Under the pieces are notes generated by a model. That model was not told the origin of the DNA. It made no database searches and worked only from the letters and a program-made list of their open reading frames with translations. Below, piece after piece: positions 6,560-60,590 of a stretch of DNA of 64,000 bases (position 1 is its first letter; the number at the start of each line of letters is the position of its first letter). The position numbers and the translations under genes were made by a program. The DNA is from Hydractinia symbiolongicarpus (Eukaryota > Cnidaria > Hydrozoa > Anthoathecata > Hydractiniidae): contig NC_079881.1 of the NCBI RefSeq assembly GCF_029227915.1, positions 20,685,501-20,749,500 of the forward strand, in the 5' to 3' direction.

Positions 6560-7368
6560 ACAACAGCAAGCTGTAATGATAATACTTGTCTAAGGACAGT
6601 TGGTTATGGCTACGTAGAGGTTGTACCCTTTAAGATTCCGAATAAATCCTAAATCTTCCTTGACAGAATATGCATTGACCACTTTGACTAACAAAAAAGT
6701 AATACAGTACACAAGAACAAAGAAGAACAAACTTCGAATACAAATACATTTCCACAGAAGACTTTGATCAAAAACAATGATAAACAACAGCTACAGTCAG
6801 AAACAATAAAAACAAGCAATTCAAACTGAATCAAGGAGTACATAAAATAATTAAAATTTATGAAAGTGAATATCCTTAAACGGATGAATTTTAAAGGAAT
6901 TCATAACGAATTCTTAGGTAAAAAAAACAGGCTTTCCATGTGTTACACGTGGGCTCAACACTCAGCCCTACACAGATAATTGCTATAATGGACTAGCCTA
7001 ACGACACGACCAGCAAGTCTTAATTGAGGTTTTTTGCTATCAACGTCGAAAAATTAGCACAAATGGGAAGAAACTTATAACCCTAATTGGCTCTTTTAAA
7101 AGTAGCTCAGGTCGGCAGGATCGTCAATCCTGAAGGCTAAGTGAGCGAACTTGGTCTCCCTACTGGCCTGGGGTAACAAGTGGGATGGTCAACCCCAAAG
7201 ACAAGACAAAATGTTAAGCCCCTTTGCTATGCTTCTAAATGGTCTCAAGAAAGAGAAGGGAGAGATCAAACTTCACTTTCACGGTGAGTTGACAAATCAA
7301 TGGTCAGCCAGGGTAAATTGCAACCGCTAGGAAAATTTCCTCCCCTGATTTACCTTGTTGCAGAAAAA
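6560..7368 (-). mobile_element. 3' UTR of an old, diverged USP retrotransposon
   Basis: Read on the minus strand, this parallels the 3' UTR of the full-length copy at lower identity. It holds the CCGCT...TTTCCTCCCC block that follows the ORF (7329-7350), the hairpin module near 7169-7200 (GGGGTAACAAGTGGGATGGT), the CAACACTCAGCCCTACACA block (6956-6974) and a terminus ACAGCAAGCTGTAATGATAA near 6565. In the intact copy the first block lies just after the stop codon, so the missing ORF end belongs where the 7370-13766 pair is inserted. The matching ORF end is found on the far side (13767-14330). About 200 bases in the middle (6600-6930) contain unrelated AT-rich sequence. Confidence 0.6.
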
Positions 7369-7369
7369 A

Positions 7370-8121
7370 ATGAAAAAGGTTTACAATACAGCAAGCTGCA
7401 CTGAAGTATCTTGTCTACAGGGACGGTGGATGTAAATAAAATTGGGATTAGGCTCCCAGAAGAAGGTGCTGAATACACTTTCTTGCTTATTACAAGCATG
7501 AGTACTGTCCAACTTGGACCTATAAATATTCACTGAGAAAATCTTAAAGAGAAAAAACAATCCTTCAATCACAAACAATACAACACAAGACAGATCTAAC
7601 AACATAAACGGACTGGTTACAGAACAAACACAAATGGAAAAAATGTATATGTCAAAAATATATAATATAAAAAAAGAATTATATAAAACCCTCCTGTGCG
7701 CCAGAACTTGTGACTCTGGCTGTAGCTTTCCACATGTGTTACAGGGCCCCAACACTCAGCCTTACACAGGAGGTTGTCATGACAGGACCAGCCTGTACAT
7801 ATTTTGACTAAGGACAGCAGGGTTGTCAAGCCTGAAGACCAAGTTAGTAAACTTGGGCACCTTACTGAACTGGGGTAAAAAGTGGGGTCGTTACACCCAA
7901 AGACAAGCTGAAAGCAAACCCCCTTGCTAAGCTTCTTTTAAGTTACCAGAGAAGAGTGAGCTGAACTCTTTACCCTCTGGGTATTGACGGCAAACTGGTT
8001 CGAATGAACTAGCTGGGGTAATATAAAACCGCTCGGATTTACATTTTCCTCCCCCATGACCCTGGAAGTACAGGTTTTATAAACGTAATGATAAATGTAT
8101 AAGAAAGAAAGAAAAAGCGGA
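7370..8121 (-). other. 3' UTR of the family-1 element
   Basis: Noncoding on the sense (minus) strand. In order from the stop codon it has a conserved CCTCCCCC/CCGCTCGG block (about 8025-8060), a hairpin GGGT-GTAACG-ACCC (7885-7898) followed by ACCCCAG, a GGCTTGACAACCC motif, a block with CTGGCGCACAGGAGG (7690-7715), an AT-rich stretch, and the terminus CAGCTTGCTGTATTGTAAAC. Short ORFs in this span on either strand repeat in other copies only because the DNA repeats, so they are not called as genes. Confidence 0.75.
7885..7898 (-). other. Conserved 3'-UTR hairpin, family-1 version
   Basis: On the sense strand GGGT and ACCC can pair around a GTAACG loop. The same place in family-2 and family-3 3' UTRs reads GAGT-GACG-ACTC. 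The A-T to G-C change on both sides of the stem keeps the pairing, which argues for a functional RNA structure. Related copies lie at 13252-13265 and 47724-47737. Confidence 0.55.
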
Positions 8122-11100
8122 TCAACAGCGAACGTAACAAAGAATATAACATGAATTGTTGTTGAGAATAGGTGGAGAGCATTTGCAAACCGCTCTATCA
8201 TTGCAGTGGTACCAAGAATTTGTGGCAGGATCCTTAACATAAGCCCAATAATGACCTGCGGTTAATGTACCGGAGTGATTAATTGTTGCTAACAATGAGT
8301 AGTTCTGATTAAACATTGTGTCCGTATCACTGACGAGAGGTAGTTGCAGGAGAGAGTCACGTAAAGAAACACATTCAACAACTCTGTTGTCTTTTACCAG
8401 ATGTTCACCATGTTTTAAAAACCTTTTAAGATGCAGGAATAAGATTTCACTACTCCTGCTGATTTGCGTTTCTCTAGTACTCTCTCTATGTGCAAAGCAT
8501 TGCGGACAAAACCACTTGTTTCCATCAGTTAGAATTTCCGGTTCTAAAAATTTGCTGACACAAGATTGGATTTTAGATGTCATTGGCAGTGTTAAAATGT
8601 CCTGCATTTCGACATTTACCGAGGTGCACAGGCAGGTGTTACAGCTTACGGACATTGAGATTTCAGTTGAGATTTTATCTGCAGCAATCGGGGAAAATCC
8701 CTTAAGGGCGTCCAAAACCACAAACAAAATCTCTGCTACATCTTGCTGAGTATTAAATTGGAAGTCCAGTTTCCCATCAGAGTGCATTTGACGTTCAAGG
8801 GCCCAGAGAAAATTCGAAGGGTCAACAGGTGACAATGATTGCTTCAGCTTCGCCATGTTAAGCGAAATAGACCTCGCAATAGGTGATAAATGAAAGGATT
8901 CTGACCCACTCTGGCACCAGAGTGTTGGAATGGTACTTAATACTTGCAAAATGGCGTTGGCGTAACAAGTGTTGCCTTTGTTTAAAAAACCGATGTTTTT
9001 ATAGACACTAATTGGTTGAGTGTCATTTTTATTTTGGCTAACCTTTTTAGATGGCCCCTTTCGGCGAGATGAAACACCCTTGGTCTCCACAATGGGCAAA
9101 GCCTGCTTGGATTTGGGTAATTGCATTAAGGAGTCAGTTGACCAAACATTGGATTCACGTGCCAGCCAGATACAAAAAGAAGACCTCATACTGATTTTAC
9201 CGAGATCATTTGCAGTGGAATAAGCAAGTTTGTTGGTGAAACCCATTCTTTTTAAACAGGCAGTGGTGGTTCTTGCACAATATCCTCTTGCTCCTACTTC
9301 CACTGCGAAGAAATCAACTTGCCAGCCATTAACCATAATCACATTCATTAAACAGGAATATTTGGCAACTTTTGTGGAGTGCCAAGCATTCATGTTTTCC
9401 TCACATGGGCAAGTGAGTTCTACAATAATAACGCGCTTAAGGTCATTTGAATATAACACAAGGTCCGGTTTAAGCTCAGAAATGGCAATATGGCTAGGAA
9501 ACACATAGTTCGAGTGTGTGTCAGCAACAATCTTCCAATCTTTGGTAAGGTGCAGTATACCTGACACTTTAGATTTTGTATGTGCCTTTGACCCGGCTCT
9601 CAGAAAGGTTATTTTTTGACAATTTTTAGGAGGTTCAGAAGGAAGCTCAAAAATGAACTTTTTCAAAGTTTCTACCAAATGGGTAAGTACAGAATCGTGT
9701 CTAAAGGTATATCTACCCTGGGAAAGAGCAGTTTTACAAGCACCAAGAATGTGAGCAGAAGTGCAAATTTCTTTGTGACATAGGAAACATGATGGTTCTG
9801 TATTTATTTTCCACCTCCTTAGGTTACTTGGTGATGGCAGAACATCGTAAGTGGATTGCAGGCAGAAAGATAAGAGATTAGGAGGAGTTGCTAGGATGTT
9901 CTTCCATGAAAGATCAAACTTTACGTAGTTCTCCCATCTTGTCCATTGGCCCTGCACCTGAAGTTGCAGTGCCTTAGATAGATCGCTTTCCTCGTCAATC
10001 TCAGCCGATGTTTTTGCGATTAACTTTCTGTACTTGTGAGTGGTTTTTGGTGGTATTACTTCCACTTTACAAATGCCAAGACCGGTTCGTCCACGCTGTA
10101 CAGGACCCCTTATGGTCTTGTACTTTAATTCACCCTCAGCTATGTTAACTGCATCGCTCACCTTCCAAGAACCTGCCTTTAAAGATGGATCGAGTGTTGA
10201 CAGAATCGGATCTTTGGAGTGACGCAAAAGTAGGTGGCCGCTAATCTTTGTGGATTTTAAAATAGAAGTGAGGCTCTTAATGGGCAGAGGGCAAGGAGAG
10301 GAGTCAGCATATAGGGAAATGTTTGTGATGGAACGGTGTAAGTTCAGCCATTTTCGTATGAACACTGAAACCTTTTGCTCTAGGCGCCCAGCAACAGACA
10401 TCGAGACCTCGTATATTAACAGTGGCCACTGAATTCGCGGGATCAAAAGATGTTGCAAGATCCAAAGTTTTTGCGCTCCAGTGTATAAGGACTTATTAAT
10501 GACACCAAGCCCTTCTATCAGCTTTTCCTCCAATTCGTTGATGGACTTCCTGTCTGAGATAGAACAATCAATAATCCGGCCTAAAAATCGCACTGGCGAG
10601 GCATGAATAGATGGGATATACTGTGAGAAATCAATGTCGTTTTCAGGGCTACTTACACTAAAAGGGGTGCTATTGATAGATCTTCCCTTGATGATCACAA
10701 AACTACGGGATTTTTCAGCGCGAAATGTCATATTGGCCCAACTTAGAGCTGTGGTGCACCTGTTAAGGAGTACTTGTGTTCCAGCAACAGAAGAAGACAT
10801 GATGTTTATGTCGTCCATAAAAGCCCTTATTAAAGGTAAGGATACTCTGTTAGAGGTGATGTAGCATGACACAGATGTTGCCAGCGTATACTCCAAAATA
10901 ACATTTATGCCTGATAAAAACAAGACGATAGACAGGGTGCAGCCAGCGAAGATGCCCCTGAAGTGCTGGTGCCAATTGCTTGGAGCAGATTTGGAGAATG
11001 ATTTGCTGTACAGCCCAGAATAGTAACCCTTTACAATGGCAATCCAACTAGGAGATATACCATACCTTTCCAAAGCAAAAAAGATTAATCTGTGCGGTAT

Positions 11101-12387
11101 TGAGGGATACGCACTTGCGATATCCAACCAAATGGTGGCAAGATCAGTTCTTGCAGAGCGTGCATCTTTTAAAGCTGCCCAGATTGACGACATGTGTTCC
11201 CAACAGCCAGGAACATTCGCCATGCACCCCTTTGGAACAGACGTGTTAATAAACTTATTGTTATGGATGACATGTGTTTCTAGTCGCCTTGAAAAAATAC
11301 TAAAAAATAATTTTCCTTCGACATTTAGGAGGGCTATAGGTCGAAAATCTTTTAGGTTAGATGGTACAGGAGTTTTGGATTTGGGAATGTAAATTTCTTT
11401 GGCATGACGCCATTGAAGAGGCACAACACAATTTTTTAAACAACACTTAAATACATTAAACAAGAAGGATGAAATTTTCGTACATTTTTTGTACACTTTG
11501 TAAGATATGCCATTTAGCCCAGGAGCTGAGGCGTTCCTACGCGTATATAAAACACTTGCGAAATCAGAAAATTTGAAAGATGTGGCTGAGAAAGCTTTCT
11601 TGATCTGCGGAGGTGGTGGAAGACCTGGAAGAAGGGGAAGAGAAGAGTCGTGAAAATTATCAGATAAGCTAGATAATTTATGGTTGTCCAGAACAGACTG
11701 TTCAACACAAAGACGAATATCTGATTTAGGGTTAAGCAGGTCCTTTCCTGCTTTGTAGGGATCATTCCTAAAAACCTTTTGGGCGTTCTTAAAGCTCCAC
11801 TTTCTTCTTCTTCGTTTCTCACCTCGACGCATCACCCTTATTTTTATTCGAACTTGTTGCAACAGTTCTTGCAAGGCAGTTAGTTCCTCCTTGATGGTTG
11901 ATGAGGCAATCTGCGCTAACAGAACATTTTTCTCCTTAACCAGATTAATGGAACGTATTGTACGCCTGTTAATACTGGCAATGTTTTTTGTTTTATTTGA
12001 GGAGCGGCAACCAAATATTTTTGAAGCCTCTTCGTAAATTAAAGTTTCGAGTGTTTTAACTTTCTCAGAAATGGATAGATTGGTACAAGCCTTTAGCTTG
12101 CTATGCACAGCACTTTCTAAGTCACTCCAACGCTTATCATTCATCTTACCCCATAGAATGGGGGCTTTCTCATCGAGGTTCTGAAGTTTGTTTTTTTCCG
12201 TGTGACACAATTTACTTTTGTGGGATGAAACCGAAGTAGAGATTGTGATCTTAAGCTTTTCAGCACCACTGAGAGAACAAACATCCTCCAAAACAACTTT
12301 ACAGCTTTTCATCAAGTGCTTTTGGAGTACTGTATCATTTTGTTTATTGCAATGATTCTTTTCGAAGTTGGGTATAAAAGAAGTCAT
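8122..12387 (-). CDS. RT - CCHC knuckle - RLE endonuclease - USP deubiquitinase polyprotein
   Basis: 1421 residues, uninterrupted. Residues 1-250 are basic and helical with no zinc finger or Myb visible. RT (about 270-640): APGLNGISYKVY; FRPIALLNVEGKLF; motif A LDIASAY (D422); motif B GCTLS; motif C FMDD (D525, D526); VRFLGR. CCHC knuckle C867-X2-C870-X8-H879-X4-C884. RLE-like endonuclease: KPDLVL (D975), VELT (E990), K1006/K1009, then AVEVGARGY. USP (about 1130-1421): NKGNTCYAN (C1141 nucleophile), QQDVAEIL, two Cys pairs of a zinc ribbon (SCNTC, WFCPQC), LHLKRF, GHYWAY (H1379), WYHCND (N1396/D1397). RT and RLE would act in target-primed insertion. The USP, by family knowledge, cleaves ubiquitin from proteins. 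No protease site between the parts is evident, so it may work as one polypeptide. Start chosen as the first ATG; it follows the 5' repeats. Confidence 0.92.
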   Translation of the reverse strand: MTSFIPNFEKNHCNKQNDTVLQKHLMKSCKVVLEDVCSLSGAEKLKITISTSVSSHKSKLCHTEKNKLQNLDEKAPILWGKMNDKRWSDLESAVHSKLKACTNLSISEKVKTLETLIYEEASKIFGCRSSNKTKNIASINRRTIRSINLVKEKNVLLAQIASSTIKEELTALQELLQQVRIKIRVMRRGEKRRRRKWSFKNAQKVFRNDPYKAGKDLLNPKSDIRLCVEQSVLDNHKLSSLSDNFHDSSLPLLPGLPPPPQIKKAFSATSFKFSDFASVLYTRRNASAPGLNGISYKVYKKCTKISSFLFNVFKCCLKNCVVPLQWRHAKEIYIPKSKTPVPSNLKDFRPIALLNVEGKLFFSIFSRRLETHVIHNNKFINTSVPKGCMANVPGCWEHMSSIWAALKDARSARTDLATIWLDIASAYPSIPHRLIFFALERYGISPSWIAIVKGYYSGLYSKSFSKSAPSNWHQHFRGIFAGCTLSIVLFLSGINVILEYTLATSVSCYITSNRVSLPLIRAFMDDINIMSSSVAGTQVLLNRCTTALSWANMTFRAEKSRSFVIIKGRSINSTPFSVSSPENDIDFSQYIPSIHASPVRFLGRIIDCSISDRKSINELEEKLIEGLGVINKSLYTGAQKLWILQHLLIPRIQWPLLIYEVSMSVAGRLEQKVSVFIRKWLNLHRSITNISLYADSSPCPLPIKSLTSILKSTKISGHLLLRHSKDPILSTLDPSLKAGSWKVSDAVNIAEGELKYKTIRGPVQRGRTGLGICKVEVIPPKTTHKYRKLIAKTSAEIDEESDLSKALQLQVQGQWTRWENYVKFDLSWKNILATPPNLLSFCLQSTYDVLPSPSNLRRWKINTEPSCFLCHKEICTSAHILGACKTALSQGRYTFRHDSVLTHLVETLKKFIFELPSEPPKNCQKITFLRAGSKAHTKSKVSGILHLTKDWKIVADTHSNYVFPSHIAISELKPDLVLYSNDLKRVIIVELTCPCEENMNAWHSTKVAKYSCLMNVIMVNGWQVDFFAVEVGARGYCARTTTACLKRMGFTNKLAYSTANDLGKISMRSSFCIWLARESNVWSTDSLMQLPKSKQALPIVETKGVSSRRKGPSKKVSQNKNDTQPISVYKNIGFLNKGNTCYANAILQVLSTIPTLWCQSGSESFHLSPIARSISLNMAKLKQSLSPVDPSNFLWALERQMHSDGKLDFQFNTQQDVAEILFVVLDALKGFSPIAADKISTEISMSVSCNTCLCTSVNVEMQDILTLPMTSKIQSCVSKFLEPEILTDGNKWFCPQCFAHRESTRETQISRSSEILFLHLKRFLKHGEHLVKDNRVVECVSLRDSLLQLPLVSDTDTMFNQNYSLLATINHSGTLTAGHYWAYVKDPATNSWYHCNDRAVCKCSPPILNNNSCYILCYVRC

Positions 12388-12737
12388 AACTATAGGGGTT
12401 GATTATGCACAGGATAGGATTGTCAGCCCTGCGTTGCCTGGCGCACAGGGTAAGGCTATAGTTTTCACAGCGGCACCAAGACTGTGAGGATTCGCTAGCG
12501 ACTAATTAACCCATTAGCCATTCATCCGTTGACGCGTACCGTGGATTAGGGTCCGGTTATAATAAAATCAAAATCAGTATACACAATCGAGTCCTTTAAA
12601 ACGGTCATGTCGATCCAGTTGCAAACAGTTTACCGGTCTTTCCCAGTGTCACTAGTCTCTCCCAGTGTCCCTAGTCTTTCCCAGTGTCACTAGTCTTTCC
12701 CAGTGTCAGGTTGAAACCATTGCGGTCAACAATAAGA
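12388..12737 (-). promoter_or_regulatory. 5' UTR / presumed internal promoter of the family-1 element
   Basis: About 350 bp between the upstream sister's 3' end and the ATG. It contains the 19-bp tandem repeats and a block near 12440-12545 that is also present in the plus-strand copy (near 46890-46935, GGCTAATGGGTTAATTAGTC). Conservation between independent copies shows this is element sequence, not flanking DNA. A promoter role is inferred from its position only. Confidence 0.5.
12632..12707 (-). repeat. Four 19-bp tandem repeats in the 5' UTR
   Basis: Plus-strand units at 12632-12650, 12651-12669, 12670-12688 and 12689-12707 follow ACTAGTCTTTCCCAGTGTC with one or two changes each. The plus-strand copy has two such units (about 46769-46806). 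A single unit abuts the 3' end of the copy at 29343. Tandem monomers in a LINE 5' UTR often act as promoter modules; that role is not shown here. Confidence 0.85.
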
Positions 12738-13766
12738 TGAAAAAGGTTTACAATACAGCAAGCTGCACTGAAGTATCTTGTCTACAGGGACGGTGGATGT
12801 AAATAAAATTGGGATTAGGCTCCCAGAAGAAGGTGCTGAATACACTTTCTTGCTTATTACAAGCATGAGTACTGTCCAACTTGGACCTATAACTATTCAC
12901 TGAGAAAATCTTAAAGAGAAAAAACAATCCTTCAATCACAAACAATACGACACAAGACAGATCTAACAACATAAACGGACTGGTTACAGAACAAACACAA
13001 ATGGAAAAAATGTATATGTCAAAAATATATAATATAAAAAAAGAATTATATAAAACCCTCCTGTGCGCCAGAACTTGTGACTCTGGCTGTAGCTTTCCAC
13101 ATGTGTTACAGGGCCCCAACACTCAGCCTTACACAGGAGGTTGTCATGACAGGACCAGCCTGTACATATTTTGACTAAGGACAGCAGGGTTGTCAAGCCT
13201 GAAGACCAAGTTAGTAAACTTGGGCACCTTACTGAACTGGGGTAAAAAGTGGGGTCGTTACACCCAAAGACAAGCTGAAAGCAAACCCCCTTGCTAAGCT
13301 TCTTTTAAGTTACCAGAGAAGAGTGAGCTGAACTCTTTACCCTCTGGGTATTGACGGCAAACTGGTTCGAATGAACTAGCTGGGGTAATATAAAACCGCT
13401 CGGATTTACATTTTCCTCCCCCATGACCCTGGAAGTACAGGTTTTATAAACGTAATGATAAATGTATAAGAAAGAAAGAAAAAGCGGATCAACAGCGAAC
13501 GTAACAAAGAATATAACATGAATTGTTGTTGAGAATAGGTGGAGAGCATTTGCAAACCGCTCTATCATTGCAGTGGTACCAAGAATTTGTGGCAGGATCC
13601 TTAACATAAGCCCAATAATGACCTGCGGTTAATGTACCGGAGTGATTAATTGTTGCTAACAATGAGTAGTTCTGATTAAACATTGTGTCCGTATCACTGA
13701 CGAGAGGTAGTTGCAGGAGAGAGTCACGTAAAGAAACACATTCAACAACTCTGTTGTCTTTTACCG
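12737..13766 (-). mobile_element. 5'-truncated sister copy, head-to-tail with the full-length element
   Basis: Nearly identical to 7370-8399. It contains the last 92 codons or so of the USP ORF and the whole 3' UTR. Its 3' end joins the 5' UTR of the full-length copy directly at 12737. At 13766 homology to the full-length ORF stops abruptly within a VKDN-type codon run, as expected from 5' truncation, and older USP-element sequence begins. No clear target duplication around the whole pair was found by eye. Confidence 0.85.
13489..13766 (-). pseudogene. C-terminal USP fragment of the sister copy
   Basis: Encodes the His box (GHYWAY), the WYHCND box and the same C-terminus CYILCYVRC as the full-length ORF. 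The Cys box and everything upstream are absent. It cannot be an active protease. Confidence 0.9.
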
Positions 13767-14330
13767 CTAATATCTACTAAAGAACGGTATATAAGCTGAG
13801 CGATTGTTAAGTTGCAACGAATCTACCAAAATAATGGCCTGCCCTTAGAGTGCCGGAGTCGTTGATGGTGCCAACTAAATTGAATAGGAAAATAATTTAC
13901 AAAGAGGTGGCAAGCCACCGCAATGATGAACTCAACCTGTTAGGTCTTTGGAAACAAGCTAGAGGTTGTACTCCTCTAGAGAATATGCCTCTAAATTATT
14001 GTAACACACATCCTCAGAGGGATGGGATGGTCTTTTCAAGACGTGATTTTTCTTTGGAAGGCACAAAACCAACCTGTTGTCTTTAAACGATGGCCTATTT
14101 AGAGATGTATACCTTAGCAATTGGACAACTAGAACACTTCCACAATTTGATATTTTCGTCTCAACTGTTGCTTCTTAATGTGACGAGCACTGGGAACAAT
14201 ACCACTTGTCGTCGCCTAAAAGTTGCTGAGGTTGGAAAATATAATTAAAGGAGTCTGATATTGACATAAACGTTGGCAAGATTAGGATGGGCTCCTTTTG
14301 GGCTCTGGAAGATGAATAAGAGGAGGAATA
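13767..14330 (-). pseudogene. USP domain remnant of the old split element
   Basis: On the minus strand, in order: a zinc-ribbon piece DDKWYCSQCSSH (14175-14220); a degenerate LVVQLLRY...FKDNRLV stretch (about 14000-14110), equivalent to LHLKRF...VKDNRVV; and a His box INDSGTLRAGHYFGRF (about 13815-13870). A 109-bp solo 3' end (13882-13990) interrupts it. The His box keeps GHY. The sequence is clearly diverged from family 1 yet aligned motif by motif, so it represents a separate USP-carrying family. Stops and the insertion make it dead. Its 3' UTR is probably the block at 6560-7368, on the other side of the inserted pair. Confidence 0.7.
13882..13990 (-). mobile_element. 109-bp solo 3' end of a family-2 element with target duplication
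   Basis: Carries the family-2 terminus GAAAATAATTTACAAAGAGG through CTCCTCTAGAGAA. It is flanked by CTAAATT at 13875-13881 and 13991-13997, a 7-bp target-site duplication. Such an extremely 5'-truncated insertion fits target-primed reverse transcription that stopped after about 100 nt. Confidence 0.75.
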
Positions 14331-14332
14331 AG

Positions 14333-14900
14333 AAAATAATTTACAAAGAGGTGGCAAGCCACCGCAATGATGAACTCAACCTGTTAGGTCTTTGGAAATA
14401 AGCAGGAGGTTGTATTCCTCTAGAGAACATGCCTCAAAAAGCACAATTCTCCCTTTTTACAAGGAATTAATTAAAAAAATAAAAAAAATAAAAAGATTTA
14501 CATTTGAAAAGATGAAAAGAACTTTAACCAAGGACAGGTAGGTTTCGACCCATATTTCTGAACCAAGTATCCTGGATGTCTAGCTGGGTCACCTCGAAGA
14601 GGTCCGCGGACGGTCATCAACAGAAACTAGACATTTCTATCTTCCTAAAGTAAACTTTGACCACTTTATGTTTAACTGTGCTATTCTTTGTTTTTAACTT
14701 ATTATTATCTTTTTTTTAATTGGGGTAATAAGTGGAGTCGTCACTCTCCAAAGACAAGACCTAGTATGATCAAACCCCCTTGCCAACTTAATTTTTATTT
14801 GATTTTGTTTTTATTTTTGACTAGGGTAATAAGTGGAGTCGTCACTCTCCAAAGACAAGACTGAATGTAGTCAAGCCCCCTTGCTGACTCATTCTGGTTA
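14333..14900 (-). mobile_element. Solo 3' UTR of a family-2 element, about 570 bp
   Basis: Minus-oriented copy of the family-2 3' UTR. It has the same terminus as 13889 and 23148, an A-rich stretch, the TGTCTAG/CTAGACA structure (14577-14633), and two tandem copies of the GGGGTAATAAGTGGAGTCGT module (near 14723 and 14825), each followed by CCCCCTTGC. It matches the plus-strand block 58546-59085. No ORF sequence is attached, so it is either strongly 5'-truncated or the tail of the neighbouring old element. Confidence 0.75.
14577..14633 (-). other. 57-nt structured element (TGTCTAG/CTAGACA), copy 1
   Basis: On the sense strand a 7-bp outer stem TGTCTAG/CTAGACA encloses two inner hairpins: GTCC-GC-GGAC, and ACCTC-TTC-GAGGT. 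The other copies are at 27421-27478, 44265-44322, 52543-52600 and 58769-58825. Confidence 0.6.
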
Positions 14901-15109
14901 AAATATTCTTACCTCAGCTCTTCTATAAAGAAAACATATTAGTGTCTGACAACTCCTAGCTTTCAAAGAAATTATCTAAGGAAGATTGTAACGTAGGGTG
15001 CAGAGAAAGTTAGATGCATGGTGCAATAACTTCTGAGGAGCTGATTGATGGTTGGTGTCTTGATGCAATTTCTTTTAATCTTCAATTGGAATGTTTTGAA
15101 AAATGCTTT

Positions 15110-15405
15110 GCAGAACGTTTATTAGCTCAAACGAGTTTTCCTAATCCGAACATTTTTTTTTCTTAATTCGAATGTTCTGTTTCATTCAAACTCTTAAGAC
15201 GTCTTAAGGCTTTAGACAAAATATAAAAACAAATTGATATTTTGTGGAGGCCTTAAAACAGTTAATTAAAGCTTACCACGATCATCTTAACACAAATTAA
15301 CATTCATACCCATTGACATATCATTTAAAATCTAACTTTTTTTAATATTCGTCTTAAGCCTTAAAACGGTCTTAAGGCTTAAAAGTGAGAACCAGCCTTT
15401 AGAAT
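15110..15405. repeat. Possible MITE or palindromic repeat
   Basis: AAGGCTGGTTCTCACTTTTA begins (on the minus strand) right after the RLE motif at 15405. TTAAGCC/GGCTTAA palindromes recur at 15190-15215 and 15355-15385. The element would interrupt the endonuclease domain of the old retrotransposon. The opposite terminus could not be fixed by eye, so the borders are tentative. Confidence 0.35.
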
Positions 15406-15880
15406 ATATCACAACATCAGGTCTTAAAAAGTCCCAGTAGCCGGCAAGGTGCATGAGACCTGTTTGTTTTGATCTCTTGCCAGATGTATAGGTAGATATA
15501 GATGTATACCTGCCTTGACAAAGTCACTGTTTAGTGGATGGTATCACTTTCGAATAGCACTTTTTGAGATGGAAAAGAAGCTCACAGGGGATAGAATCAT
15601 GCCTTAAAGTAAACCTGCCTTGCGACAGGGCAACCTTACAGGCTCATAAGGCATGTGCTGTTATGCACACCTTCTTTCTGCATAGAAAGCAAGAGGATTC
15701 TGACAAAATTTTCCAGCGTTTTAAATTACTAGGAGAAGGAAGGACGTCGTATGTAGAGGCAAGACAGAAAGACAAAAGATTTGGAGTCATAGCTAGAATG
15801 AATTTCAATGACAGGGCTAGTACACCACAATCATTATTGATGCCGTAACTTCTTGACGCGAAACAATAATCGCAACGCAA
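15406..15880 (-). pseudogene. CCHC knuckle and RLE remnant of the old USP retrotransposon
   Basis: The minus strand encodes TPNLLSFCLASTYDVLPSPS then CFLCRKKVCITAHAL (15644-15800), the same block that precedes and forms the CCHC knuckle in the full-length ORF. Beyond a stop it continues in another frame with ALSQGRFTLRHDS (about 15560-15610) and RPDVVIYS (about 15406-15430), the PD motif of the endonuclease. It has the right order and orientation to be the upstream part of the element whose USP remnant lies at 13767-14330. A possible MITE and a solo 3' end lie between. Frameshifts and the insertions inactivate it. Confidence 0.7.
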
Positions 15881-23146: not shown

Positions 23147-23147
23147 A

Positions 23148-27849: not shown

Positions 27850-28510
27850 CTGCAATTTACTTAAGCTCTTCAAGGAAAAAGATGTAAGATTGTACACGAT
27901 TAAGCAAGCTTTGTTACAAGGGACAACTGCTCGTCCGTTGCAATGAAACCTATTACCATGCACTTGGTTATAAGCAACAGTAGCGTAATGGCCATTGTTC
28001 AAATTTCCAGAGTGGTTAATTACAGCCCCTAAGTTGTAGTGCTTGTTACAAGAGGACTTTACCGTCTACGGTGATAGGTATAGAAACGGTGCTCGGATAA
28101 GATGCGACAGGAGAACAAACCTTAGACACAAGACCTTTGTTATAGGCAAAGCGCTTTAATTGCAGAACCAAAATTGAACTCTGCGACCTCTTTTTCAACT
28201 GTTGCAGTTTGGTAACTATTGCAGTAGTGACAGTAGTACGAGTTGACAATTCTTCGCTCTCCAAAAAGTTATCTATTGAAGATTGTACAGTCGATGTCAA
28301 GGGCAGTTGAAGAAATGGACTTACTTGCTCAGAGGTGGTAATATTATTGCAAGCTCTACAAGTAGTGCAGATTTTCACACGAGTGTTGAATAATCTACCA
28401 TAGAAAGGAAAGCCTTAGGAGAACTCTGGTATGAGTAACTCAAGAATCTCTACGGCATCTTGCTGTGAAAACGGATTAAAAGCAGCGCCCCTTGCATTAG
28501 AAACATGGCT
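27850..28510 (-). pseudogene. Family-3 USP domain (frameshifted)
   Basis: Minus-strand order: a QQDAVEIL segment (about 28440-28470); a stop; a frame 28046-28378 with zinc-ribbon-like CTTCRAC, LQLPLTSTVQSSIDNFLE and VLQLKRFAYNKG; then a shift into VINHSGNLNNGHYATVAYNQ (about 27960-28025), FHCNGRAVV (about 27925-27950) and CLIVYN. The His box keeps GHY. In the third box the conserved residue is the Asn (CNG versus CND in family 1), supporting Asn as the third catalytic residue. Identity to family 1 is low outside the motifs, so the USP has been inherited for a long time. The Cys box was not found upstream. Confidence 0.75.
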
Positions 28511-29050
28511 TTTTAATGCATTTAGAAATGAATAAGGGTTCCCTGGAACCTTGGAGGAGGATAATTTGCGTAGAATACAAAACTTTTACCTATCACCATA
28601 TTGAAATCATTTGCAGAGATGGTTGTGGCAACTGCGATCCTAACAAGTTGTGGAAAACAGTATTGTTGAGAGCGCCCCAAGCTCCTGTGTCAGCAAATTT
28701 TAGCCATGAAATTTGTTGTTTTCTCTCTATTTTTTTGAGCTTTTCAATATCTGCTGGTTGCTAAGAAAGAACACTGTGGGTTTTATCCAGGTTAGCTTTC
28801 AGCAGCTTAGACTCTTCAGTGGAACCGGCAGCAAAAACGTCTAGCAAAAAAACTTCCAATTTTTCGGGAAGTTTCATTTGAAGACGCAATTTCAATGGTG
28901 ATTGGTGGTGAAGAGGGACAAATTATATTAAAATCGATATCCGAAGGGGTAGTCCTAATACGGTCTGTGTCAATAACATTTTGAAAATCATGGTTAAAAA
29001 GATTTGGATCTTTTGTAGACCAAAATGAATCCCACCGGCGACCTAAGCTT
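28511..29050 (-). pseudogene. Degenerate coding remnant upstream of the family-3 USP
   Basis: Open minus-strand fragments such as FADTGAWGALNNTVFHNL (about 28640-28700) and KLKKIERKQQISW (about 28700-28740) have coding-like composition but no motif I can name. Position suggests the linker or RLE end of the family-3 ORF or an unrelated nested relic. It is poorly supported. Confidence 0.25.
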
Positions 29051-29342: not shown

Positions 29343-31133
29343 GTGAAAAAGGTTTACAATACAGCAAGTATCTTGTCTACAGGGACGGTGGTTGTCAAAT
29401 CTGGGGTCAGGCGAAGGTGCCAAATACACTTTCTTGCTTCTCACAAGCATAAGTACTGTCCAACTTGGACCTAAAACTATTCTTCAAGAAAATCGTAAAG
29501 AGAAAAAACAATCCTTCTATCACAAACAATACGACACAAGACAGAGCTAACAACACCCTCCTGTGCGCCAGAACTTGTGACTCTGGCTGTAGCTTTCCAC
29601 ATGTGTTACAGGGCCCCAACACTCCGCCTTACACAGGAAGTTGTCACGACAGGACCAGCCTGTCGATATTTTGACTAAGGACAGCAGGGTGGTCAAGCCT
29701 GAAGAACAAGTTAGTAAACTTGGGCACCTTACTGAACTGGGGTAAAAAGTGGGGTCGTTACACCCAAAGCTTCTTATAAGTTACCAGAGAAGAATGAGCT
29801 GAACTCTTTACCCTCAGGGTATTAACGGTAAACTGGCTTGTATGAACCAGCTGGGGTAATACAAAACCGCTCAGATTTACATTTTCCTCCCCATGACCCT
29901 GGTAGTACAGGTTTAAAGCAACAGCGAAGGTATTTTATAAAGAGGGAAAAAAAAGAAAAAGAAACCAACAAAAAAAAACTAGCAGCGGGCATAAAAGTAA
30001 GCATATTATGTAGTGCTGTTCAGCGTTCTTGGATCAACTTTGCTTATTGCCTTATCATTGCAGAGGTACTAAAAGTTTGTGGTCCGATCTTTGATATGGG
30101 CCCAATAGTTGCCTGCATTCAATGTTCCAGAGTGATTTATCACAGCTACCAAAGCATACTTTTGGATAAAAGGTGTGTCCGAGTCACTAGATATCGGGAT
30201 ATTGAGATAAGGATTACAAGAGGAAAAACTTTTAACAAATTTATTATCCTTAACCAGATGTTCTCCATTTCTTGCAAACCTTTTCAGGTGCAAGGTTAAA
30301 ATTTCGCTATTCCTTGTAATCCTTGTTTCCCTTGTGCTTTCTTGGTGCAGGGAACATTGTGGGCAAAACCATTTAATTTCATTCTTCAGATTTTCAGAAG
30401 CTAAAAATATATTAACTGACACTCTGGAAGGCGGCGACAGTGTTAGGATGTCCTGATTTTCAACAGTAACTGAAGAACAGAGACATGTCTTACAGGTAAC
30501 TGACACCAAAACTTCTGTCCATTACCGAGAACCCTTTCAATTTATGAAAAACAAGAAGTAACATCTCTGCCACATATTGCTGAGAATTGCATTGGAAGGT
30601 TGTATTTCCAGAAGAATGTATCTTACGTTCTAGGTCCTTGAGAAAGTTTGAAGGATCAACGGGGGTCAAAGAACGGTTTAACATGGTCATGTTAAGAGCA
30701 ATCACTCTCATAATTGGCGACAAACGGGATGAGTCCGAAGCACTCTGGGACCATAAGGATGTAATAGTACTTAGTGCTTGCAAAATAACATTGGCATAGC
30801 ACGTATTGCCTTTGTTTACAAAACCTGCATTTATAAAAATTGTCTTTGTTTTGGCATTAGTTTTGTTATGGTTGATTTTTAGAGAGACCAGAGGGCGTGG
30901 ACCTGATAAACAACCCTTGGGCATTTCTTTTACGGAAGCTGGATTACTATTACGAGATGCAACAGACTTGGGCGGAAGAGTCTTTCTCGTTCCGAGTGCC
31001 TTAAATAAGGAGTCTTGAGACCAGTCTCCTGATCCTCGAGCAATCCATACACAGAAAAAAGCTGTCATACTGATTTTACCAAGGTTTTTGGCGGTGGAAT
31101 ATGCCATTTTGTTGGAAAAACCCGGCCTTCTAT
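29343..31133 (-). mobile_element. 5'-truncated family-1 copy, about 1.8 kb
   Basis: Contains the end of the RLE region, the USP and the 3' UTR of family 1 in the minus orientation. Homology starts at about 31133 (GFSNKMAYSTAK, equivalent to GFTNKLAYSTAN of the full-length ORF) and ends with the terminus GGTTTACAATACAGCAAG at 29348. The 3' UTR lacks about 120 bp of the AT-rich block present in the full-length copy. Protein divergence from the full copy is clear but motifs align throughout, so it is an older or separate lineage. Confidence 0.85.
30069..31107 (-). pseudogene. Family-1 USP with a mutated catalytic His
   Basis: The first frame (30490-31107) starts MAYSTAKNLGKIS and includes a complete Cys box NKGNTCYAN (about 30790-30820) and QQYVAEML. 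A frameshift near 30500 moves to a second frame (30069-30509) with the zinc ribbon (TCKTCLC, WFCPQC), LHLKRF, VKDNKF and INHSGTLNAGNYWAHI. The catalytic His of GHY is Asn here (GNY), and the following Trp codon of the WY box is a stop (TAG) although YLCND follows. The protease would be inactive even if the frame were restored. Confidence 0.85.
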
Positions 31134-31590
31134 CTGTCGGCTTCCATGCTTAGCTATCGTTGAGGTCGGACGTATCTAAAACGCTCCGGTCTTGGCGCGC
31201 TAAGTCGAAGAAAGAAAAAAGAAGACTAAAGCTTGAAGAGCTCCTGCTTTGACAGCTAAGTCCTTTTTGATTAATTATATATTGTACTGCCTTCTTTACT
31301 TCATTTGTATCTATATATATATTTCTTTAAATTGTTGTTTTGTAAGTTTTTAAATTATTGTTTTTGTTAATAAATTGTTTTTATCCCAGTCAGTTTTTTA
31401 TCCATCTATCATCTAATATGGTAGCTTTGCTGTGTTGTGGGTTCCTGCTGCTCCTTCTGTGTAACATCGTAAGGAAATGGGCTTGCCTCAGATCCTTCAT
31501 AGTTTTGGAAGAGCACATAAACGTAGAATGATCTCTCTACGACTTAAAAATAACTTTACTCAGGTAGGAAACCCACATTTACGCTAAAAC
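31134..31590. other. AT-rich intergenic DNA
   Basis: No gene. The sequence is T-rich (31270-31380), then leads into the LINE at about 31590. Confidence 0.4.
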
Positions 31591-31598
31591 TGATTTTT

Positions 31599-46500: not shown

Positions 46501-46976
46501 ATACGTTTATGTTGTTAGCTCTGTCTTGTGTCGTATTGTTTGTGATAGAAGGATTGTTTTTTCTCTTTACGATTCTCTTAAAGAATAGTTTTAGGTCCAA
46601 GTTGTACAGTACTCATGCTTGTAAGAAGCAAGAAAGTGTATTCAGCACCTTCTTCTGGGAGCCTAATCCCAGTTTTGACAACCACCCTCCCTGTAGACAA
46701 GATACTTCAGTGCAGCTTGCTGTATTGTAAACTTTTTTCATCTCTTTGTTGACAGCAATGGTTTAAACTGACACTGGGAAAGACTGGAGACACTGGGAAA
46801 GACCAGACCACTGTTCGCATTTAGACTGATTGACCGTTTTAAGGATTGGCTTTGATATACCGATTTTGTTTTTGATTTTAACTGGAGCCTAATCCACGGT
46901 ATGCGCCAATGGATAAATGGCTAATGGGTTAATTAGTCGGAAGTTGGAACAATAAACCCCAATCCTTTGGGGTAAG

Positions 46977-47561
46977 ATGAATGACACACGTTGGAGCAAA
47001 TTTGACAGTGCTGTGCATAGCAAGTTAAGTACTTGTAAGCATCTATCTATTAATGAGAAAGTAAAAACACTTGAAACCTTGATTTATGAAGAAGGTTCGA
47101 AAATATTTGGTTGTCAATCTTCAAAACAAACTAAAAACCTCTCTAATATTAACAGGCGTACAAATCGTTCTAAAAATTTAGTGAAGGAGAACAATATTAT
47201 TTTAGCACAGATTTCTTCATCATCGATCGAGGGAGAACTATCTGCTTTTCGACAACTTTTGCATCAAGTTAGAATAAAAATTAGGGTAATGCGTCGAGAT
47301 GACAAACGAAGGAGAAGAAAGTGTAGTTTTAAAAATGCCCAAAAATTATTCAGGAAGGATCCCTACCACGCAGGAAAAGACCTACTTAACCCTAAATCTT
47401 ATGTTCATTTTTGTGTCGAACAGTCTATTTTGGACAAGCACAAATTATGCAGTTTGAGTGACGACCTTAACGACTCTTCTCTGCCGGTTCTGCCAGGTCT
47501 TCCACCACCTCTGCAAATCAGAAAACGTTTCTCATTTTTAACTTTCAAATTTTCTGACCAG
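46977..47561 (+). pseudogene. N-terminal remnant of the RT-RLE-USP ORF
   Basis: Starts MNDTRWSKFDSAVHSKL, equivalent to residue 82 onward of the full-length protein, and runs through KVKTLETLIYEE, the basic RVMRRDDKRRRRK segment, DPYHAGKDLLNPKS and LPGLPPPLQIRKR to FKFSD. There the coding sequence is fused to 3' UTR, adding about 25 meaningless residues. The basic pre-RT region is well conserved between this copy and the full-length one, which argues that it matters to the protein. Confidence 0.85.
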
Positions 47562-47723
47562 GGTCATGGGGGAGGAAAATGTAAATCCGAGCGGTTTTGT
47601 ATTACCCCAGCTGGTTCATACAAGCCAGTTTACCGTTAATACCCAGAGGGTAAAGAGTTCAGCTCACTCTTCTCTGGTAACTTATAAGAAGCTTAGCAAG
47701 GGGGTTTGCTTTTAGCTTGTCTT

Positions 47724-47737
47724 TGGGTGTAACGACC
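47724..47737 (+). other. Conserved 3'-UTR hairpin in the plus-strand copy
   Basis: GGGT-GTAACG-ACCC, the same as in the full-length copy. Confidence 0.5.
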
Positions 47738-48140
47738 CCACTTTTTACCCCAGTTCAATAAGGCGCCCAAGTTTACTAACTTGGTCTTCAGGCTTGACAA
47801 CCCTGCTGTCCTTAGTCAAAATATCGACGGGCTGGTCCTGTCGTGACAACCCCCTGTGTCCGGCTGAGTGGTGGGGCCCTGTAACACATGTGGAAAGCCA
47901 CAGCCAGAGTCACAAGTTCTGGCGCACAGGATGGTCTTATTTAATTCTTTTTTATATTAATATACTTTTACATTTTTCTATTTGTGTTTGATCTGTAACC
48001 AGACCGTTTATGTTGTTAGCTGTCTTGTGTCGTATTGTTTGTGATAGAAGGATTGTTTTTTTTTCTTTACGATTTTCTTAAAGAATAGTTTCAGGTCCAA
48101 GTTGGACAGTACTCATGCTTGTAAGAAGCAAGAAAATGTA

Positions 48141-50820
48141 TCCTTCAGGTTTAAAAACAAAAAAAGAAATAAAAGTAGGCGAAAGAAATAAAAGTAGGCG
48201 AAAAAAAAAAAAGTTAAATTACCAATAGACTAAATCCAAAATGAGACTCAGTGGTATTAATATTTAGACTAGCCGGGGAACCCGGGGTCGAAACGCTGGG
48301 TTCAGCCACAAGTAACTGTGTTACCTGGTGTTGAATTCCTGAAAGAGCGATTAATAAGAACTGTAAACTGTACCACACATTCAGGTGAAGCGCTTCATAG
48401 TATCTCATAAATTTAGTAAGGCGCAGAACATTATGGTGTTTCCAGTGTAATATATTTGTAACACAGTTTACAACTCGTTGTTCCTGTTAAACAGTTAGCC
48501 ATCTTTTTTTATTTTCAGAGAACGTTCCCGTTAAAAGTTCAAAAATAAATATTACTCCGGGCTGAGGGATTAGTACAGGCAAACAAAAACACATATTAGT
48601 ACAAACAATGACACATATCCATATAGGCATAATACCCTTTTTTGAAAAGAAACTTTATTGTAACTTTGGATAAACACAAACTCAGGAAACAGCCATCATT
48701 AACATGGAACTGAGCGCTTAGTACAGGTAAACTGTGTCGTCAATGCGTTTAGGCATAATACCCTTTTCAAAAAAACTTTATTGCAACTTCGGTTTAAATA
48801 AGAACACAGGAAAAACAACCTGTTGTTACCCTGTCCAGTTAAAAAAATCATAATCAATTCTATTTTGCAGAGTAAGTTTTCGTGACAGTAATAAAAGGTG
48901 TCGCTACCTACTAACTGCACTTAGCATAAATATTGATTAAGAATTTTGTTGTAGCTAGCCAAACTGCATTTGGCTACTCTTACTCTTCTTCCAGAAGTAA
49001 CTGAAGGGCTAGCTAGAAGAGAGGCACAACCCCAACATGACAATAAATAATAATAAATATACCAAAGTTTAAAATAATAAGAATAAATAAGGCTAGCTAC
49101 AGCTAGCTGGATCAGTAGGATGCTGCATTGAAATCTGTTAGCTAGGTAAAATGTTGAAATCGGTTTGTTTCAGATTTACACATGGCTAGAAAACTTGATG
49201 ATATTTGCATCTTAATATACGAAAACATAGACACAATGAAGAGAATATCTTAAACATTGATAGAACTGGAATTTGGGCAGTTAAATAATTATACTAACCC
49301 AACTAAACATTCCTCTCTCTTCAAAAAAGATTTGATTTGCAGCTTGGTGGAGACTCTAGAGTATAACAAATATAGTCTCCTTGAACCCTGTATCTCGAAA
49401 GAAACGACTCGTACCTTAACTCCTAGAACTCGGTTTAGTTGAACAAAATCCGCCTGGTTAAAAACATAACTGGAAACGAAAAGAAAGAAACGAAAGGAGT
49501 ATCTAGCATAGCTCATTATAATATTAAAATAACAGTTGATAAGAATATTTGTGATCAAATTCTTTTGCCAATTTAACGAATATCAAGATACGCAGACAGC
49601 TGGAGTAGCGGTCAAGTCGTTCTTCAAAAGTCGTGACGTTACGGCAATCGGTTAAAAAATCGGTGGAAGAAGAAGAAAAAGACCGCCGGTTTTAATACAG
49701 TTGTCTAAAATATATGCAGGTACATCAAGGCAAGGCATTATTTCTTGCAAATAACTAAAAAAATTTTGATTTTTAACAAAAGAATTAAGCAGCTTAGGAT
49801 TCTCTGTTTATTAAAAATCGACAAGCGACAGATATCGAAGTTGCTGTTTCATTAAACATATTACAAATGAAACCGAGCATGAATTTGACGTCCTCTTGAG
49901 GAATTTAAGTGCCAATAACTTTAATATTCACACAAGAAATAAATAAAACCGCGGTTTCAGCATACACATACAGAGGCACATCATAAAAAAACCTTGTTTC
50001 TGCCTTTATAAAATTTCAGGAGCTGAATTAAGAACCACGGGTATGGTATTTTTTTTAAATATTGGAAGACTAAACACTATGAGTAATGGCGTGGTGTAAG
50101 TTTTACCAATTTGCACATAAAGCAATATACAGTATAGAGGTATATAAAAAAGACGATAGGCCAAATCAATATTTTAATTATAAAACATTCTTTCTGAAAT
50201 TATAAACAATTTCTAAAAGACAAACACTTGTAACCTGCAATTGAGAAATCTTCAATGGGTATTTGCATTCTCTAATCCATGGTGATAACTAGCCAACACT
50301 GGAAGAAATATTGAAATAAAAGTAATAAAATATTATATACACAATATTTCTTAAAGCACTATAAATTATTTTCTACATACCAATATCTCTTGCCACCATG
50401 ATTAAAGAAATATAGGAAGGACCCTTCATTTAATTTTCCATACGTTGCTTCTCGCATTATTCTTTCATCTCTCTTATACTGCAGAACCAACGCACCTCCT
50501 TGGATGGTCTGTCAAAACTCCGCAGTCTACAATAGCATAAATTGTATGTCACCATAGTATGCCAATTGAGGAAAAAACATGCTTGAATAAGCAGTTATCT
50601 TGCAAAAAAGACATATTTCGTTCTGAAATGATCAAAACACATTGTTGTACACCTTAGAAGTCACAATATTCTGTTCTAAATTGACCAAAACACATTTGAC
50701 AGGAACCAAAACTATGTATGTGTATCTTGTATAAAAAGTTATTAAGTAATTCAGTTATATACGTAGTCCTGTAAATGTTGGCACAAAAAATACAGGAATT
50801 AATAAACCCTCAATTTTCAA
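48141..50820. other. AT-rich intergenic DNA
   Basis: About 2.7 kb with no gene I can support. An ORF at 49257-49442 (plus) and its minus shadow show no motif. GCTAGCTA words occur near 48950-49105. Confidence 0.4.
48625..48830. repeat. Degenerate tandem pair, period 126 bp
   Basis: AGGCATAATACCCTTTT followed by AACTTTATTG.AACTT.GG occurs at 48625 and again at 48751, with TACAGG-AAAC words before each. Confidence 0.65.
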
Positions 50821-58326: not shown

Positions 58327-58545
58327 GTGATCCTTACGTCGAGGAGAAAAGAACAGGAAAAACGATGGAAAAAGCGTAAGGCTTACCGTGTGTTTCTCAG
58401 AGATCCTTATCAGGCTGGCAAAAATTTACTAGACCCTGGGAGATTTGTCAAATTGGAAGTACCAAAAGAGTCTATGGACGGCCACAAAAAGAAATCAATG
58501 CAAGATCCAATGCGTGATGTAGCATTGCCCTTATTGGAAGGTTAA
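58327..58545 (+). pseudogene. Family-2 ORF piece: basic pre-RT region
   Basis: RRKEQEKRWKKRKAYRVFLR, DPYQAGKNLLDPGRFVKLEV and DPMRDVALPLLEG align with the pre-RT region of the full-length protein (RRGEKRRRRK, DPYKAGKDLLNPKS, SSLPLLPGLP). It stops at GGTTAATAAAAATTAAG, where 3'-UTR-like sequence begins. Confidence 0.8.
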
Positions 58546-59085
58546 TAAAAATTAAGTTAGCAAGGGGGTTTGATCATACTAGGTCCTGTCTTTGGAGAGT
58601 GACGACTCCACTTATTACCCCAGTTAAAAAAAAAGCACTAGCAGGGGAGTTTGATCACACATGATCTTGTCTTTGGAGAGTAACGACTCCACTTATTACC
58701 TGAGTTAAAAACAAAAAATAGCACAGTTGAACAGAAAATGGTCAAAGTTTACTTTAGGAAGATAGGGATGTCTAGTTTCTGCTGATGACCGTCCGCGGAC
58801 CTCTTCGAGGTGACCCAGCTAGACATCCAGGGTATTTAGGTTTATAAATATGGGTCGAAACCTACCTGCCCTTGGTTTAAGTTCTGTTCATCTTTTCAAA
58901 TGTGTTTTGCCCTCTTTATTTTTTTAGATTTTTTTAAATTAATTCCTTGTAAAAAGGGAGAATTGTGCTTTTAGAGGCATTTTCTCTAGAGGAGTACAAC
59001 CTCTAGCTTATTTCCAAAGACCTAACAGGTTGAGTTTATCATTACGGTGGCTTGCCACCTCTCTGTAAATTATTTTCTGTCTTTT
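58546..59085 (+). mobile_element. Family-2 3' UTR nested in the ORF (solo end or intron)
   Basis: Plus-oriented equivalent of 14333-14900: two GGAGAGT.ACGACTCC modules (near 58597 and 58675), the TGTCTAG structure (58769-58825), CCTCTAGCTTATTTCCAAAG, and a terminus CTCTGTAAATTATTTTC. The joins read like splice sites: GAAG/GTTAATAA at the left, and TTTTCTGTCTTTTACATTTC then AAG at the right. It could have been inserted into, or be removed as, an intron. Confidence 0.75.
58769..58825 (+). other. Structured 3'-UTR element, copy 5
   Basis: TGTCTAG/CTAGACA stem with inner GTCC-GC-GGAC and ACCTC-TTC-GAGGT hairpins. It is the clearest copy. Confidence 0.65.
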
Positions 59086-59089
59086 ACAT

Positions 59090-59500
59090 TTCAAGAATTT
59101 CAACGAGTTCTTCAGTCTCGTTGCAATGGCTCTGCGCCAGGTATCAATATAATACCATATAAGGTTTACAAATATTGCCAAAAAACTGCTTCTTTCTTAT
59201 TTAATACATTAAAATCAAGTCTTAAACGTGTTGTATTTGAGGTTTTTATTTCCAAACGCCAACCTCCCAAACCACCCTGCATAAAGGATTATAGACCAAT
59301 AGCTTTATTGAAAGTGGAAGGTAAACTATTCTGTAGCCTAATCTCGAAACGTTTAGAGACTCACATCGTAAAAAATAATAATTCTGTCAACAAAAGTATT
59401 AAGAAAGATTGTATGGAAAAGGTTCCTTGTTTGTTGGGAGCATATGTCCCTAGTTTGGTCGGCATTAAAATCTGCCAAGACTGACAAAGCTTTCCGTTTC
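59090..59500 (+). pseudogene. Family-2 RT fingers
   Basis: FQEFQRVLQSRCNGSAPGIN, IPYKVYKYCQKTASFLFNTL, CIKDYRPIALLKVEGKLFC and SKRLETHIVKNNNSVNKSI align with residues about 270-400 of the full-length protein. A frameshift follows CMEKVPCLLG, and the frame is cut by the hAT element in the IWLD codons of motif A. Confidence 0.8.
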
Positions 59501-60261: not shown

Positions 60262-60590
60262 TACAGGATAACTTGACAACTGCAACTATGTTCTACTATT
60301 TCTTGACAGTTGTCAATTAAATTATAATGAATATTGGAATGAAATGGTTTTATATAAATTAAAATGAATGCAGGATAAAATGACAACTGAGTAACCCCAT
60401 AGTCCCTGCAACTATGTTCTACTATTTCTTGACAGTTGCCAATTAAATGATAATGAATATTGGAATGAAATGGTTTGATATGAATAAAAGTGAATGCAGG
60501 ATAAAATGACAACTGAGTAACCCCATAGTCCCTGCAACTATGTTCTATTATTTCTTGACAGTTGTCAATTAAATGAAAATGAACTATGGA
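60262..60590. repeat. 126-bp minisatellite inside the hAT element
   Basis: Three units mark CTATGTTCTA at 60286, 60412 and 60538, with TTTCTTGACAGTTG, AATTAAATGATAATGAA and CAGGATAAAATGACAACTGA in each. Units differ at a few bases. Confidence 0.9.

Follow-up and report, generated by a model that had tools for sequence, protein, structure and literature searches.

How does a complete ubiquitin-specific protease (USP) come to stand at the end of a retrotransposon protein, and what would it do there? The question is raised by a single open reading frame (ORF) in a stretch of 64,000 nucleotides from the hydrozoan Hydractinia symbiolongicarpus (assembly GCF_029227915.1, contig NC_079881.1, positions 20,685,501 to 20,749,500), hereafter the window, in whose own numbering positions are given unless a locus is named. 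A first-pass annotation, made from the letters of the window, had described there an uninterrupted frame of 1421 residues that fuses reverse transcriptase (RT), restriction-like endonuclease (RLE) and a USP. We put at roughly 0.6 the probability that this frame represents a clade of RLE retrotransposons not described so far, whose integration machine has long kept an active USP as an integral part and whose RNA templates, of more than one unit, leave head-to-tail copies resembling those of Penelope-like elements.

One frame joins a reverse transcriptase, a zinc knuckle, a probable endonuclease and a USP

The frame exists as described. Positions 8122-12387 hold 1421 codons without interruption, encoding one 1421-aa protein, on the minus strand, which the annotation had left unstated; the first frame of the plus strand over the same interval is closed by many stops. 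It is the sole frame of at least 300 aa in the window; after it, the longest is 220 aa if a start codon is required and 254 aa if counted between stops. All residues that the annotation had numbered (D422, D525-D526, C867/C870/H879/C884, P974-D975, E990, K1006/K1009, C1141, H1379 and N1396) are found at the positions it gave.

A Pfam scan of the 1421-aa protein identified RVT_1 (PF00078, E=9.8e-16) at residues 334-604, and when the PDB was searched by sequence, R2 retrotransposon proteins matched residues 284-717 with E about 1e-18. A zf-RVT match at residues 824-887 stayed below the Pfam cut-off. The CCHC knuckle between RT and endonuclease has the spacing CX2CX8HX4C, which fits the range CX2-3CX7-8HX4C that PMC5678591 gives for long interspersed elements (LINEs) with an RLE. 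The region that follows carries the motifs of a PD-(D/E)XK-like nuclease whose Lys is displaced downstream, and has no match in the Pfam scan. When a family profile of knuckle and RLE (three rows) was compared with the PDB, the two best matches were R2 proteins (E=0.27 and 0.43, not significant), and the alignment is collinear through the knuckle, PD, VELT against VDVT, K..KY and GARG. Because these E values are no better and no single stretch is significant, we regard an R2-like RLE as likely, not proven.

Several domains known from other elements were looked for as well. The N-terminal 330 residues of the 1421-aa protein show no C2H2 zinc finger pattern, nor do those of the frames in three diverged genomic copies described below (L009, L011 and L013). 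The Pfam scan of the 1421-aa protein, the sole method used for Myb, gave no Myb domain; it also gave no GIY-YIG profile and, at E<=1, no Ulp1 (C48) profile.

The annotation had proposed comparing the C-terminus with the Pfam UCH profile. PF00443 matches residues 1132-1418 over its whole length (1-254 of 254, E=5.1e-32), which places the domain in peptidase family C19. Its PDB matches by sequence include USP8, USP15, USP2 and USP36, the first three being the best. Like these cellular USPs, the domain has Cys, His and Asn boxes, a zinc ribbon and a QQD motif; unlike them it is compact, at about 290 aa, and follows an RLE in the same protein. Self-processing of a polyprotein at a ubiquitin domain was considered and appears unlikely, because no ubiquitin domain passes the cut-off. 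The profile of the ubiquitin-like APG12 matches residues 671-725, inside the RT region, so weakly (E=0.036, below the cut-off) that we took the match for chance.

The frame belongs to a dispersed, recently active element

We searched the species' own genome (480.9 Mb, 76 contigs), scoring 33 of 3430 candidates, so that all match counts are lower bounds. Among the 40 matches listed, which include the window itself, 26 span the region from the RLE to the USP His box and 16 that from RT D422 to H1379; the rest are partial. At least nine copies, about 99-100% alike, cover residues 1-1421, and seven of these nine have no internal stop. Relatives were also sought elsewhere: viral contigs gave no match, and in prokaryote contigs two stretches fit a pattern, neither of them a relative.

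The retrieved copies fall into four lineages, namely A, to which the window element belongs; A' (an array at C13 and the window copies at 29-31 kb and 46.5-48.1 kb); B (L009-L012 and L014); and C (L013, with pieces in L010 and L031). Comparison of 28 loci with the window element showed that A copies have variable 5' ends and a fixed 3' end. Fourteen of 16 rows of 3' ends reach ...TTTTTCA(T), followed by 0-9 extra bases and then by flank, two rows being units of one tandem insertion; of the two remaining rows, one is an internal tandem joint (L016) and in the other (L025) the match stops about 90 bp earlier. The flanks of the printed copies look unrelated by eye, which indicates dispersal without site-specific insertion. 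Target site duplications were seen neither at the junctions of nine copies, where only stray matches of 6-7 bases occur, nor in a set of 12 copies, and no poly-A tail was seen at the copies' 3' ends. Insertion at specific sites is the rule among RLE-type LINEs, with exceptions, and LINEs commonly, though not always, show target site duplications. The window copy is itself inserted in an older, decayed B-like copy, whose USP end forms its left flank and whose 3' untranslated region (3'UTR) forms its right flank. The account that we favour, taken jointly with the active, in-cis USP discussed below, is that of a recently active non-long-terminal-repeat retrotransposon of the RLE (R2-like, early-branching) kind that appears to have gained a C-terminal USP.

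The USP has been kept across diverged lineages

The order RT-RLE-USP is the same in A, A', B and C. Identity to A is 55-58% for B and 45-47% overall for C, for which it is 31% in the USP, and in RT as well as in USP it is highest for A', lower for B and lowest for C, as expected if the fusion was inherited together by common descent. One B copy (L009) is an intact frame of 1422 codons with a UCH match of 3.8e-31 over the full profile, and a C piece matches UCH with 2e-24 over profile positions 13-253.

Key residues were compared copy by copy. All 22 of 22 are present in the A copies L001-L008, L020 and L021 and in the B copies L009, L010, L011 and L012; shorter or split copies (L014, L022-L025, L028) keep every key residue that they cover, and the RLE core residues are kept in the retrieved A and B copies. 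The USP Cys box is preserved in A', B and C copies. Within C, the piece in L010 has GLKNLGNTCYANSILQ and the C-like piece in L031 has GLLNLGNTCYINSILQ, whereas L013:5482-6465 (+) has, relative to the L010 piece, an in-frame gap of 45 residues that includes the Cys box.

Substitution patterns were compared between A and B and between A and A'. Between A and B the proportion of differing synonymous sites (pS) is 0.68-0.82 by region, so silent sites are near saturation, and the corresponding nonsynonymous proportion (pN) is 0.20 for RT, 0.27 for knuckle and RLE, and 0.38 for the USP. The ratio of nonsynonymous to synonymous rates (dN/dS) between A and two units of the A' array at C13 is 0.11/0.10 for RT, 0.07/0.07 for the RLE region, 0.17/0.10 for the USP and 0.25 for the N-terminal region; for the USP of A against the window copy at 29-31 kb it is 0.12. 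These ratios are rough, the A' dS for RT, RLE and USP being 1.5 or more, and they are upper estimates because the A' copies are broken. The USP ratios (0.10-0.17) lie close to those of RT (0.10-0.11). On these comparisons RT, RLE region and USP are under purifying selection. As several old branches of the family keep the three-part layout, the USP is probably used by the element itself. Because its catalytic boxes are complete and it is under selection, we expect it to be an active deubiquitinase; activity is likely. The first-pass picture of an RLE-type LINE with a fused C19 USP is upheld by the profiles, the genome copies, the kept catalytic residues and purifying selection; its RLE component stands on motifs and a non-significant match.

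Head-to-tail units share a constant joint

Ahead of the full unit in the window lies, head to tail, a partial upstream unit that comprises the last part of the ORF and the 3'UTR (Table 1). Ten distinct A unit-to-unit joints in the retrieved loci read alike, and the number of 19-bp repeats alone differs (the repeat stretch measures 95 in L028, 133 in L004 and 114 in the other eight A joints). In the window this 19-bp minisatellite occupies 12636-12707; it lies at the same place in L002-L008, L019 and L028, and its repeat number differs between near-identical copies. Upstream partial units start from about 116 bp (L019), and at C11 two full units 5367 bp apart stand behind a partial unit of 761 bp. 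No retrieved A copy that extends as far as the unit start has its own 5' end exactly at that point. The A' locus at C13 (23678000-23702499, comprising L015, L027 and L029) consists of at least four units in tandem, each some 5.3 kb long; they are 98-99% alike and their frames are broken. In lineage B, L011 carries a direct repeat of 1456 bp at a spacing of 5465 bp; no such repeat was found within the 10 kb examined for each of L009 and L010, and L012 and L014 have other repeats.

This arrangement suggests that RNA templates longer than one unit leave head-to-tail copies. Because the joint is identical in ten distinct A joints, its inheritance through multi-unit templates is favoured over template jumping with variable joints; a precise jump may also have produced it.

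Similarity also extends into the 3'UTR. Positions 7808-7936 of the A 3'UTR align with 7106-7236, in the 3'UTR of the right-flank B-like copy, at 75.6% identity over 131 bp, and the latter 3'UTR is 76% identical over 241 bp to that of L009. Because this similarity persists while silent sites of the ORF are near saturation, the conserved 3'UTR RNA is probably recognised by the element's protein. A stem-like module of about 101 bp (AGCAAGGGGG...GTAACGACCCC...TTACCCCAG) was seen by eye in A and B 3'UTRs and occurs in tandem at 14686-14887; it may be an RNA site bound by the protein. No ribozyme or other Rfam family reached the gathering score in the window, and none was found at E<=1 for 7000-8200.

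Relationship to known elements

In its RT, knuckle and probable RLE the element would be classed as an RLE-type LINE. With R2-type LINEs it shares a single ORF, an R2-related RT, the knuckle spacing, a probable RLE after the knuckle, 5' truncations and the lack of a visible poly-A; it departs from them by the C-terminal USP, by having no N-terminal C2H2 finger that we could find, by dispersed insertion as opposed to a fixed rDNA target, and by its tandem units with a head-to-tail partial unit. In the pseudo-long-terminal-repeat (pLTR) arrangement of Penelope-like elements, units follow one another head to tail and the upstream one is truncated at its 5' end. Head-to-tail units of which the upstream one is partial also occur in A, A' and one B copy; unlike Penelope-like elements, these belong to a family with an R2-matching RT, an RLE-like endonuclease and no GIY-YIG profile. 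Dualen/RandI elements carry an OTU-type cysteine protease; they too are LINEs with a domain of a deubiquitinase superfamily, and would differ from the present element both in the family of that protease and in their set of endonucleases.

NeSL and one Utopia element are RLE-type LINEs that also carry a cysteine protease of the ubiquitin/SUMO world, which PMC4640811 describes as Ulp1-like and N-terminal. Here the protease is a USP, identified by the UCH profile, of another clan and C-terminal, and the first-pass annotation was right to set the two apart. Limited literature and protein searches, with Repbase and subscription journals outside their scope, found no description of a USP-bearing LINE. 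The main texts of PMC4640811, PMC5718144 and PMC5035012 do not contain the word 'ubiquitin', and no USP was seen in excerpts of PMC5678591 and PMC5348765 selected by other terms.

What the USP may do

The simplest course of events that we can propose is as follows. The element RNA would be translated into one protein, which would then bind this RNA by its conserved 3'UTR. The RLE would nick DNA, and the RT would prime at the nick from the 3' end of the RNA, in target-primed reverse transcription that would often be incomplete; where the RNA template exceeds one unit, a partial upstream copy would be left. The USP, working in cis, would strip ubiquitin from the element's own protein or ribonucleoprotein (RNP), and from host proteins that reach it, sparing the RNP from degradation before or during integration. 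Protection in cis is our first choice, because a domain fused to RT and RLE should meet its own chain and RNP before anything else; we rate this account as a whole somewhat better than an even bet.

Several observations weigh against an active USP in an RLE element that works in this way. The RLE is called from motif order and a profile match that is not significant (E=0.27), and three of four A' array units carry P974T. In the USP, an A copy (L019) is without the zinc cysteine C1294, the C copy L013 is without N1136 and C1141, and the B copy L010 has the equivalents of T1140I and G1378D. Between A and B the USP evolves faster than RT and RLE, as judged by pN. AlphaFold predictions of residues 820-1421 and of the USP alone, made with alignment rows from the window only, were unusable and were set aside (mean predicted local distance difference test, pLDDT, 38 and 39). 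Finally, the cis substrate is something that we infer.

Alternatively, as the first-pass annotation had also suggested beside protection of the element's own RNP, the USP may act on host proteins at the insertion site, such as ubiquitinated histones, PCNA or FANCD2-like repair factors, and so aid target-primed synthesis or second-strand completion. Host USPs with histone, PCNA and FANCD2-like substrates exist, the domain is tethered to enzymes that work on target DNA, and its PDB matches include USP1, USP36 and 3mhh, which we take to be yeast Ubp8. However, USP1 scores lower than the best matches, USP8, USP15 and USP2 (49 vs 87 bits), and is not among the 60 matches shown for the family profile, and a substrate is not readable from sequence; we consider such a role unlikely. 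Somewhat less probable again is an arms-race module, with the USP countering ubiquitin-based host restriction by an E3 ligase directed against the RNP. The faster divergence of the USP between A and B is what a host-pressed interaction surface might show, but dN/dS is far below 1, we know of no host ligase directed at the element, and the idea overlaps with protection in cis.

Could the domain be a passenger, captured and kept by recent ancestry, or a structural, non-catalytic part? The loss of the Cys box in L013 and the changes near the catalytic boxes in L010 would agree with this; it is nevertheless improbable, given that catalytic and zinc residues are kept in most A and B copies, that the Cys box is found in A', B and C, and that dN/dS is low. 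A chance ORF, a host USP gene fused by chance to a retrotransposon fragment and an assembly artefact, in favour of which we found nothing, are ruled out because the same arrangement recurs in one uninterrupted frame at many unlinked places and in several diverged lineages.

Features of the window

Coordinates of the element, its parts and its relatives in the window are collected in Table 1.

Table 1. The USP-bearing element and related copies in the 64,000-nucleotide window
Feature	Position	Strand	Basis
One full element unit, 5367 bp, fixed 3' end ...GTAAACCTTTTTCAT	7364..12730	-	sequence comparison
5' leader with 19-bp minisatellite, copy number varying between copies	12388..12730	-	repeat search, locus comparison
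Single ORF, 1421 aa: N-terminal region, RT, CCHC knuckle, RLE (likely), linker, USP	8122..12387	-	ORF and Pfam
Reverse transcriptase RVT_1, residues 334-604 (D422; F-M-D-D with D525, D526)	10576..11388	-	Pfam, PDB sequence matches
CCHC zinc knuckle, residues 867-884, CX2CX8HX4C (C867/C870/H879/C884)	9736..9789	-	pattern
Probable RLE core P974-D975...E990...K1006/K1009	9361..9468	-	motifs; collinear with R2 proteins, not significant
USP (peptidase C19) domain, residues 1132-1418	8134..8994	-	PF00443
USP Cys box N1136-K-G-N-T-C1141	8947..8982	-	motif
USP zinc ribbon C1249, C1252, C1294, C1297	8497..8643	-	motif
USP His box H1379 and Asn box N1396 (D1397)	8200..8253	-	motif
3'UTR	7369..8121	-	sequence comparison
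Partial upstream unit (last ORF part and 3'UTR), 99.6% identical to 7364-8398, head to tail with the full unit	12731..13765	-	sequence comparison
Left flank: decayed related (B-like) element with RLE and USP remains, target of the present insertion	13766..15814	-	sequence comparison
Right flank: 3'UTR of older B-like element	6930..7340	-	sequence comparison
Older A'-like copy: RLE tail, linker, USP, 3'UTR	29344..31149	-	sequence comparison
Older A'-like copy, internal deletion from N-terminal region to 3'UTR	46504..48141	+	sequence comparison
USP remains of more distant (C-like) copy	27892..28579	-	sequence comparison
Scattered remains of divergent copy: N-terminal region, RT, RLE tail, USP Cys box	58336..63868	+	sequence comparison

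In the plus-strand A'-like copy at 46504-48141 the deletion joint lies near 47557/47558, and the frame continues for about 26 codons. Copies of a short repeat, about 95-167 bp long and 92-95% alike, lie at 13882-13995, 14326-14439, 23137-23231 and 58912-59078. The repeat looks like a small non-autonomous element; one copy sits inside the decayed USP remains at 13.9 kb. Other mobile elements have left remains as well. At 31554-33582 (+) the Pfam profiles PHD and RVT_1 mark what is left of another LINE, with its RT and a PHD-like finger, and RT remains of other LINEs lie at 4598-5670 (+), found by Pfam, and at 23428-24320 (+), seen by eye. DNA transposon remains with DUF4371, DDE_Tnp_4 and hAT dimerisation domains were found at 39949-40713 (-), 43587-43967 (-) and 60760-61158 (-). 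Remains of hAT, DDE_Tnp_4 and PHD-finger LINE elements are usual in animal genomes.

Implications

LINE proteins are targets of host quality control, and to our knowledge few LINEs encode an answer of their own. In a LINE with a built-in deubiquitinase, a single point mutation (C1141A) would suffice to test directly whether retrotransposon proteins are under ubiquitin control. RLE proteins, moreover, serve RNA-templated gene insertion, where protein stability matters. LINEs have taken up the Ulp1 protease in NeSL and Utopia and the OTU protease in Dualen; with the USP they would have drawn on the ubiquitin/SUMO system for one more protease family, which points to de-modification as something that target-primed retrotransposition repeatedly requires.

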